Shown piece by piece: positions 53,630-55,969 of a stretch of 57,390 nt of DNA. How positions within the stretch are numbered: position 1 is the first letter of the stretch; the number at the start of each line of letters is the position of its first letter. The position numbers were made by a program, and so were the translations under genes. Location of the stretch: assembly GCA_024710585.1 (NCBI GenBank), contig JANJUM010000040.1, forward strand, positions 1 to 57,390, given 5' to 3'. The notes below the pieces were generated by a model. That model was not told the DNA's origin, did not search any database, and saw only the letters and a program-made list of their open reading frames with translations. Source of the stretch: Desulforhopalus sp. (GTDB lineage: Bacteria > Desulfobacterota > Desulfobulbia > Desulfobulbales > Desulfocapsaceae).

Positions 53630-54460
53630 ATGGAGAGCATCATTGCCCAGCGACTGCGGCTGCAACATCAACCGGTGGCCATCGTCTGGGCCAAGGAGAA
53701 GCCGCCGCAGGCGCGGCAGTTCGCCGAAGGCCGCTGGGGCTGCGTCATGTTCATGCTGGCGGCGGTGGTGAGAGGCGAGACCGCCGTCTTCGACGAAAAG
53801 ACCATCGGCTGCCCGGGGGGCGGCGTCGGGCTCGGTTTCGGCAACCAGTACGTCAACTTCGCCGGCGGCGAGGAGTGTTTCAAGTACTTCCTCTCCATCG
53901 GCAACGAGCACTGGGAAGAGGGCAGGGCGGCCGGGGAGCGGGTCAAGCCCTATATGCGCCCCGAGGCCTACGGCCACTTCATGCATGGCGAGCGCTACGT
54001 CAAGAGCCCTGAGCTGGTGGGCAGGTTCCTCGCCGCTTTGCCGATGACCACCGTGCCGACGCCCTATGTGGTGTATAAGCCGCTGGCCGATGTCGACGAG
54101 CATGTCGACGACCTGCGCACCGTGGTCTTCCTCGCCGACGCCGACCGCATCGCCGCCCTCACCGTGCTTGCCAACTACGGCCGCGGCCATAACGAGAACG
54201 TCATCTTTCCCTTCGCCGCCGGCTGCCAGTCGCTGGGCATCTATCCCTACCAGGAAGCGGAGCGCCCCGAGCCGCGGGCGGTACTGGGCTTAAACGACAT
54301 CTCCGCGCGCCTCTATCTCAAGCGACTGCTCAAGGACGACCTGTTCAGCTTCGCCATGCCGCTCTCCCTGTTCCGCGAGATGGAGCAAAATGTCGCAGGC
54401 AGCTTCCTCGACGGCGACACCTGGAAGGACCTGCGCCGCCTGGCCGGTGAAGAGGCCTAG
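53630..54460 (+). CDS. DUF169 family protein
   Basis: LQHQPVAIVWAKEKPPQARQFAEGRWGCVMFMLAAVVRGETAVFDEKTIGCPGGGVGLGF; GGAGGA RBS. Confidence 0.85.
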   Translation: MESIIAQRLRLQHQPVAIVWAKEKPPQARQFAEGRWGCVMFMLAAVVRGETAVFDEKTIGCPGGGVGLGFGNQYVNFAGGEECFKYFLSIGNEHWEEGRAAGERVKPYMRPEAYGHFMHGERYVKSPELVGRFLAALPMTTVPTPYVVYKPLADVDEHVDDLRTVVFLADADRIAALTVLANYGRGHNENVIFPFAAGCQSLGIYPYQEAERPEPRAVLGLNDISARLYLKRLLKDDLFSFAMPLSLFREMEQNVAGSFLDGDTWKDLRRLAGEEA

Positions 54461-54463
54461 GGA

Positions 54464-54757
54464 TTAACAGCCGCAGCCGGAGGGAACCTTGCCGCGCACT
54501 TTGGCGATCCAGCTGTTGATGATGTAGGCAGCGCAACCGCAGCCGTCGTCGGGGTTGACGTAGATCGCCCCGACGGGGCAGTTGGTGGCGCAGGCCCCGC
54601 ACTCCATGCAGGCGCCGCGGTCGATGATCTCCGCCTTGCCCTCTTTGAGGACGAAGATGCGATGGGGGCAGACGAGGGCGCAGTTGCCGCAGCCGATGCA
54701 CGTGTCGGTGTCGAGACGGAGGATGGCGGCGTCTTCGAGGTAGCGGAAGTGGCGCAT
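54464..54757 (-). CDS. hgcB: HgcB: 4Fe-4S ferredoxin-like mercury methylation protein
   Basis: CIGCGNCALVCPHRIF...DRGACMECGACATNCPVGAI...C-terminal SGCGC; directly downstream of hgcA. Confidence 0.92.
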   Translation of the reverse strand: MRHFRYLEDAAILRLDTDTCIGCGNCALVCPHRIFVLKEGKAEIIDRGACMECGACATNCPVGAIYVNPDDGCGCAAYIINSWIAKVRGKVPSGCGC

Positions 54758-54767
54758 GGCGGGCTCC

Positions 54768-55931
54768 TTAAGAAAGAAAGGCGGCCAGCGGCCAGAGGAC
54801 GGCCGCGGCGAAGGTGGCGCTGAGCTGGAAAATCAGGCCGCCCCGCAGCTCCTGGCTGACTCCGGAGAGTGACGTGTAGGGTGTCGAGCCGGTGAAGTTC
54901 ATCGCCATGAACGACGAGCCGGCGCCGACCCACAGCACCAGCGCCACCTGTTCCGTCATGGCGAGCTCGGGCAAGGCGAGGAGCAGCGGCAGGCACAGGG
55001 CCGCCCCGACGAGCAGGCCTTTTATCCAGAAGCGGCGGCAGGGCACCCAGGGCAGCAGCAGCGGCACCAGCACCGCCCCGGCGACGAGGGCGACGAGGGT
55101 CGCCGCCAGCAGCACCGCGAAGCGGCTCAGGGTGCCGTGCAGGGCGAACGGCTCCGGGCCGATCCCCGAGAGAAGCAGGAATAGCGGCAGGGCGAAGGCC
55201 AGTTTCTTCCACACCAGGCAGATTTCCAGCGGCACCAGCACCGCCCGCTCGCCGAGGGTGAAGGTGACGGTGCGCATCTCTTCGCTGGCCTTGCCCTGGA
55301 GGAGATACTCCGGCAGGTCCCTGGCGAAAATCGGCCCGAAACGGCCGGAGAAGCCGCACAATTCCTTGAGCCGGTGGGCGGCGACGCCGTTGGCGGCGAG
55401 CTGCGGGAGGATGAGGCGGCGGTGGCTGACGAGTTCCTCGAGGCGGCAGCGCCGCACCTGGAAGGCGATCTCCTCGCAGGAGAAGGTGCCCTTGCCGGCG
55501 GCGCACCACACGTTGACGCCGCGGCTGTCGATTATCAGCAGCCAGGCGTCGATATCAGCGAGTTCCTGACGCAGGGCGTCGAAGGTCAGCTTGTAGTTGG
55601 CCGAGACCAGCACCGGCGAGTCGGCTCCCGGGCTGCCGACGCAGTAGAGGCCGGGGGTGACGCGGTAGTCGTTGCGGGCCAGGCCGGTGCGCGCTCCGAC
55701 CGTGCCGAGGTGGTCTTTGAGGCTGAGGGTGGTCGCCACCCGCGGCACCGCCCCCACCGGGCTGTCGACGAAGCCTTCGACGAAGGGGAGGATGGCGTAG
55801 CCAGCCCTCTCGTGGCCGCCGGACCGCGGCGGCGGTTTCGGCCCTCAGCAGGGGGCGGCGGGCAGTTCCGGCGGGGCCTGCAGCGGTCCAGGAGCGAGGG
55901 GCAGGATGGCACGTGGCAGCGAGGGGTTCAT
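54768..55931 (-). CDS. hgcA: HgcA: corrinoid/CFeSP-like membrane protein of mercury methylation, with in-frame UGA (putative Sec) at 55845-55847
   Basis: NVWCAAGKGTF cap-helix motif; VPRVATTLSLKDHLGTVGARTGLARNDYRVTPGLYCVGSP...SPVLVSANYKLTFDALRQEL; C-terminal TM domain with MNFTGSTPYTSLSGV; upstream frame MNPSLPRAILPLAPGPLQAPPELPAAPC-[UGA]-GPKPPPRSGGHERAGYAILPFVEGFVDSP with ATG and GGAG RBS. Confidence 0.9.
55816..55835 (-). promoter_or_regulatory. Candidate bacterial SECIS stem-loop downstream of hgcA UGA
   Basis: mRNA CCGCCG-CCGCGGUC-CGGCGG, 6-bp stem, GGUC at +20 to +23 after UGA (E. coli fdhF GGUC at +19 to +22). Confidence 0.6.
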
Positions 55932-55969
55932 GGGGTGTCTCCAGTAAAAAGGAAGGGGCGGCGCCCCGG

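Follow-up and report, generated by a model that had tools for sequence, protein, structure and literature searches.

The window, a 57,390-nucleotide stretch of DNA from Desulforhopalus sp. (contig JANJUM010000040.1, assembly GCA_024710585.1), carries on its minus strand an hgcA gene that is open only if an in-frame TGA is read as selenocysteine (Sec). In a profile search, the product scored above the curated cut-off of the HgcA profile NF040863 (395.5 bits versus 275) and also matched PF03599. The protein comprises an N-terminal C28-U29-G-P sequence, the corrinoid cap motif NVWCAAGK, and a C-terminal transmembrane domain. A score above the cut-off, the N(V/I)WCA(A/G)GK corrinoid-capping Cys motif, and an adjoining hgcB are the marks of HgcA membership, and all three were found; based on the family profile, the cap motif, and the neighboring hgcB, the product is a putative mercury methylator. 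The features of the locus are listed below, with hairpin positions counted from the UGA on the minus strand such that +n is 55845-n.

53630-54457, plus strand: gene for a DUF169 protein, beside hgcB and on the opposite strand
54464-54757, minus strand: hgcB, encoding a dicluster ferredoxin (NF040864, 106 bits versus a cut-off of 99)
54768-55931, minus strand: hgcA, 387 amino acids via one in-frame UGA
55815-55819, minus strand: 3′ arm of the conserved stem, GCGGC (+26 to +30), covarying with the 5′ arm
55820-55825, minus strand: apical loop of the conserved register, GGUCCG (+20 to +25), with GGUC at 55825-55822 (+20 to +23)
55826-55830, minus strand: 5′ arm of the conserved stem, GCCGC (+15 to +19), covarying with the 3′ arm
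55815-55833, minus strand: alternative register, +12 to +18 with +24 to +30, loop CGGUC; no other local hairpin in the window is as stable
55816-55835, minus strand: register of the first-pass annotation, +10 to +15 with +24 to +29, loop CCGCGGUC, present in the letters, with no covariation
55845-55847, minus strand: UGA, codon 29 of hgcA, predicted Sec in C-U-G-P-K-P-P-P-R-S-G; TGC or TGT in Cys orthologues
55931, minus strand: start ATG of hgcA, from sequence
55938-55942, minus strand: ribosome-binding site GGAGA, 6 nt before the ATG and upstream of the UGA, from sequence

The HgcB encoded next to hgcA ends in SGCGC rather than in a vicinal Cys-Cys, and its gene contains no UGA; PMC13188914 lists an HgcB form whose C terminus carries Sec (motif GVGU). 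The structure model of HgcA is confident in the core (mean pLDDT of 90), with low confidence in the first 30 to 40 residues, and the position of Sec29 is not placed by it. In an alignment of 37 sequences in which UGA was read as Cys, C28 and C29 never varied and G30 and P35 hardly did; Sec29 stands at the second Cys of this conserved N-terminal pair. Under the standard code, the UGA would instead end a short upstream frame and hgcA would start downstream, for example at GTG 55757, which would make the site a pseudogene or leader. A 329-amino-acid open reading frame from that GTG and an HgcA profile match that begins at residue 62 are compatible with such a start. However, the stretch from the UGA to residue 62 shows protein-level conservation in both Sec and Cys orthologues, the Cys forms read straight through the site, and the GGAGA site precedes the upstream ATG, leaving a downstream start highly improbable.

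The hgcA mRNA around the UGA reads CCC TGC UGA GGG CCG AAA CCG CCG CCG CGG UCC GGC GGC CAC. The first-pass annotation, which had proposed a selenocysteine insertion sequence (SECIS) here, gave the letters, distances, and coordinates correctly, and the pairing that it drew between CCGCCG (+10 to +15) and CGGCGG (+24 to +29), with GGUC inside the loop, can form. Because of the CCG repeat, at least three hairpin registers compete: +10-15/24-29 at −11.1 kcal/mol, +12-18/24-30 at −13.2 kcal/mol, and +15-19/26-30 at −10.6 kcal/mol. The same annotation had named a stable alternative fold that hides GGUC as a result that would speak against its proposal. Such a fold exists in part: the unconstrained fold of +1 to +33 is a different structure of −17.5 kcal/mol in which the GG is paired, but with +1 to +6 withheld from folding, the minimum-energy fold is the +12-18/24-30 hairpin with CGGUC open. 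The first nucleotides after the UGA would sit inside the ribosome when the UGA is in the A site.

A stem of this kind could arise by chance, CCG-rich Pro codons and GGC Gly codons pairing by composition alone, with the UGA acting as a stop or being decoded via another signal. The window by itself fits that account, as alternative folds compete within it and its hairpin is unremarkable under a synonymous null: when the amino acids and local codon usage were kept, 20% of synonymous sequences were as stable (P = 0.20) and 50% passed −7.5 kcal/mol. The first-pass annotation had itself cautioned that chance stems are plausible in GC-rich DNA; the significance of the hairpin is reached from the orthologues only, not from the window sequence alone.

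HgcA genes were drawn from 263 genomes of the window’s order (probably Desulfobulbales) plus a genome collection. TGA occupies the site in 83 distinct sequences, almost all of them from that order and most with the frame C-U-G-P-x-x-x-P-R-[SA]-G, and TGC or TGT in 26 distinct sequences with C-C-G-P-x-x-G-P-P-S-S or close forms. On a tree of 67 proteins, two changes of Sec/Cys state are needed, and the Sec forms fall into two separate clades, one of 33 rows that includes the window and another of 10 rows that comprises one Myxococcota record along with families f7 and f14. A contiguous hairpin resembling a bacterial SECIS (bSECIS) is present in 80/83 Sec sequences, 46 of them at or below −7.5 kcal/mol, an energy reached by 1/26 Cys sequences; the three Sec sequences without a contiguous 4-bp stem under the rule used are L009, L147, and L170. 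GG at +20 and +21 occurs in 79/83 Sec versus 1/26 Cys sequences. When synonymous codons were shuffled among the Sec sequences, the observed mean of −7.69 kcal/mol compared with −3.98 ± 0.32 kcal/mol (0/200 permutations as low), and a thinned set of 20 sequences less than 75% identical gave −8.57 versus −4.47 ± 0.60 (0/200). Both tests re-choose the best register in every permuted set; permutation within each register group is biased, the register being chosen per sequence. The hairpins of the Cys set are weak (mean, −1.65; 2/200 permutations as low), a signal probably owed largely to one GC-rich sequence, L146 (−12.5 kcal/mol).

The conserved register was identified in a near group of 19 sequences comprising the window, its relatives in genus g1, and near neighbors. 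These sequences pair +15 to +19 with +26 to +30 around a loop that reads GGUCC[A/G] in every sequence except one, and RNAalifold returned the same structure. In this register, 97.9% of cells are paired, and the covariation is 0.248 versus 0.065 in shuffled sets (0/500), with slid registers at no more than 0.028. Pair 15-30 is G-C in 8 sequences, U-A in 6, C-G in 2, G-U in 1, and mismatched in 2 (L142 and L150); it is paired in 17/19 sequences, compared to 7.8 expected by shuffling (0/20000). Both bases lie at third codon positions, of Pro in 17/19 rows and of Gly in all, and the compensation is thus synonymous. At pair 18-27, the relatives have A-U where the window has G-C. The bases of pair 15-30 changed at least four and five times, respectively, on the tree, and the number of independent covariation events in the near group is therefore modest (about five). 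The comparison among UGA-containing orthologues that the first-pass annotation had called for accordingly found a stem that is conserved with the UGA and covaries at the family level, although not in the register that it had drawn: there, 73.7% of cells are paired, no more than in shuffled sets, no pair covaries, and two of the six pairs are broken, in 15/19 and 10/19 near-group rows. The register +12-18/24-30 was likewise rejected as the one that the genus conserves, with 59% of cells paired in relatives; it is the register used by the clade f7 orthologues. The covariation and the permutation tests across orthologues, together with the retention of the stem in relatives in which U-A and A-U pairs replace G-C, argue strongly against a chance GC-rich stem, which we now regard as very unlikely.

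The stem register and length vary between clades, and other clades use neighboring registers, with hairpins such as CCCC-GG-UCC-GGGG, CCC-AGGUCN-GGG, and CUCCU-CGGGC-AGGAG. Across clades, the GG(U/G)C loop at +20 to +23 stays constant, whereas no single stem does. The second Sec clade (L036, L060, and L220 to L227), from f7, f14, and one record titled Deltaproteobacteria but placed in Myxococcota, has tails such as CUGPKIPPRAG and CUPPKVQAP and its own covarying SECIS, with compensations at 13-30, 14-29, 16-27, and 18-25 and 35/35 pairs formed in five sequences.

The bSECIS model in PMC13188914 (Fig. 2) describes an apical loop of 3 to 9 nt, a stem of 4 to 16 bp, a G in the first two loop positions, 16 to 37 nt from the UGA to the apical loop, and an energy of −7.5 kcal/mol or lower. 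The conserved register has 5 bp and a 6-nt loop, and the most stable local register 7 bp and a 5-nt loop; their loops, GGUCCG and CGGUC, both have G within the first two positions and start at +20 or +19, which places them 18 to 19 nt from the UGA. The energies of both registers lie below the threshold, which is nondiscriminating here since half of the synonymous sequences pass it. The orthologue comparison adds that the hairpin is kept with the UGA codon and lost in Cys homologues. The loop CCGCGGUC lacks a G in its first two positions, whereas the supported stem places GG at the loop start, as the model asks; hence, the GGUC loop and spacing of the first-pass proposal stand, and its stem shifts to +15 to +19 with +26 to +30. 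No credible Rfam family match was obtained, and a plasmid search with the hgcA N-terminal DNA returned no match.

The GG of the loop is supplied by an Arg codon at codon +7 after Sec. This codon is CGG in 70 and AGG in 12, together 82/86, Sec rows, compared to 50/110 CGG plus AGG among other nearby Arg codons, and the two Sec sequences without Arg+7, L036 (Gln) and L060 (Pro), nevertheless retain the loop GG, shifted one base downstream. The Cys-type HgcA, an orthologue with the same N-terminal tail, differs in its UGC or UGU codon, in having no Arg+7 in 26/27 rows (Pro in 21, Lys in 4, Glu in 1, Arg in 1), in having no GG at +20 and +21 in 25/26, and in having no consistent hairpin. The one Cys-type (TGT) sequence in 27 Cys rows with Arg CGG at codon +7 is L229 (L114), CCGGPAPSRST, which may be a remnant of an earlier Sec form. 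Independent-pairs tests of Sec versus Arg+7 or GG gave no significance, with only 2 Sec/Cys switches on the tree. We take this pattern, at the level of sequence, as a sign that the SECIS shapes the HgcA protein through Arg+7.

The genome encodes the machinery for Sec insertion, including SelB (320 bits, over the cut-off), tRNA-Sec (73 bits versus a gathering score of 47), SelA (621 bits), and two different selD genes (L192 and L193), each with an in-frame TGA. It also contains formate dehydrogenase-family genes with TGA, three of which (L196 to L198, partial matches below the FdhA cut-off) have an 8-bp hairpin with the loop GGUCU at +19 to +23, the loop that E. coli fdhF also has. The SECIS of these three genes and of fdhF resemble the hgcA hairpin in lying directly after the UGA, in a GGUC loop at +19 or +20, and in spacing. 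The hgcA stem differs from the 8-bp, GGUCU hairpins of L196 to L198 in being 5 to 7 bp and contiguous, with a loop GGUCCG or CGGUC and a drifting register. In the same family as the source, Desulfosediminicola flagellatus has been reported to carry 43 known selenoprotein genes (PMC12013277).

The earlier proposal of a SelB-type bacterial SECIS for the hgcA UGA is strongly supported: the hairpin is conserved where orthologues have UGA, covaries synonymously, and is absent from Cys forms, and the genome has the Sec machinery as well as formate dehydrogenase-type SECIS elements with a GGUC loop. We are therefore highly confident in the prediction that the hairpin is a bacterial SECIS that directs Sec into HgcA at codon 29. 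A conserved hairpin could also act chiefly to pause translation or to affect mRNA stability rather than to bind SelB, and the differences in stem register and length among clades are in keeping with this. Yet the hairpin and GG loop track UGA versus UGC/UGU at the codon, and three UGA genes of the formate dehydrogenase type in this genome have an identical GGUC loop; a pause or stability role has, in our estimate, scarcely any probability.

If the hairpin is a SECIS, the ribosome would start at ATG 55931 and reach codon 29, with the hairpin, from about +12 or +15 to +30, staying outside the entry channel and exposing a small GGUC-containing loop at +20 to +23. SelB carrying Sec-tRNA(Sec) would bind this loop and bring selenocysteine to the UGA, and the predicted product would be an HgcA whose N terminus bears a Cys-Sec pair. 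Because Hg(II) is bound tightly by selenolate, Sec29 could plausibly help to take up or pass on Hg(II) or keep the site reduced; its probable role in the N-terminal tail is that of a thiol/selenolate that ligates or relays Hg(II), or a redox one. A bolder combination, which we put forward tentatively and consider rather unlikely, is that the RNA signal dictates Arg+7 and that the selenolate at position 29 acts directly on Hg(II), which would make methylation in this order (probably Desulfobulbales) selenium dependent. Sec29 would then capture Hg(II) or hand it over between the HgcB cysteines and the corrinoid.

Sec-type HgcA has already been predicted in print: a 2026 review (PMC13188914, Table 1) lists a Sec HgcA with the motif CU (NF040863; WP_250697417.1), crediting Haft and Gwadz 2023 (J Bacteriol 205:e00259-22), a work also cited in PMC11588087 (2024), where some hgcA and hgcB homologues are said to be possible selenoproteins. 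The hairpin supports this known idea and is not a new kind of system; the window, whose HgcA belongs to this protein family and has the same Cys-Sec motif, adds one more species. The SECIS covariation found here is absent from the listings in PMC13188914 and PMC11588087, and a literature search, the scope of which did not take in Haft and Gwadz 2023, found no description of an hgcA SECIS or its covariation. What is added here is the evidence from covariation and an Arg, seven codons downstream of Sec, that is linked to the SECIS; this is stronger evidence than any we found in print.

The standard-code annotation removes the N-terminal tail with the Cys-Sec pair from these HgcA proteins, and expression constructs starting after the UGA would miss that tail. 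The synonymous covariation is sequence-level evidence that the hgcA UGA is read as Sec across a large set of bacteria that may methylate mercury, and it makes testable the question of whether methylmercury formation in these bacteria depends on selenium and on Sec29.
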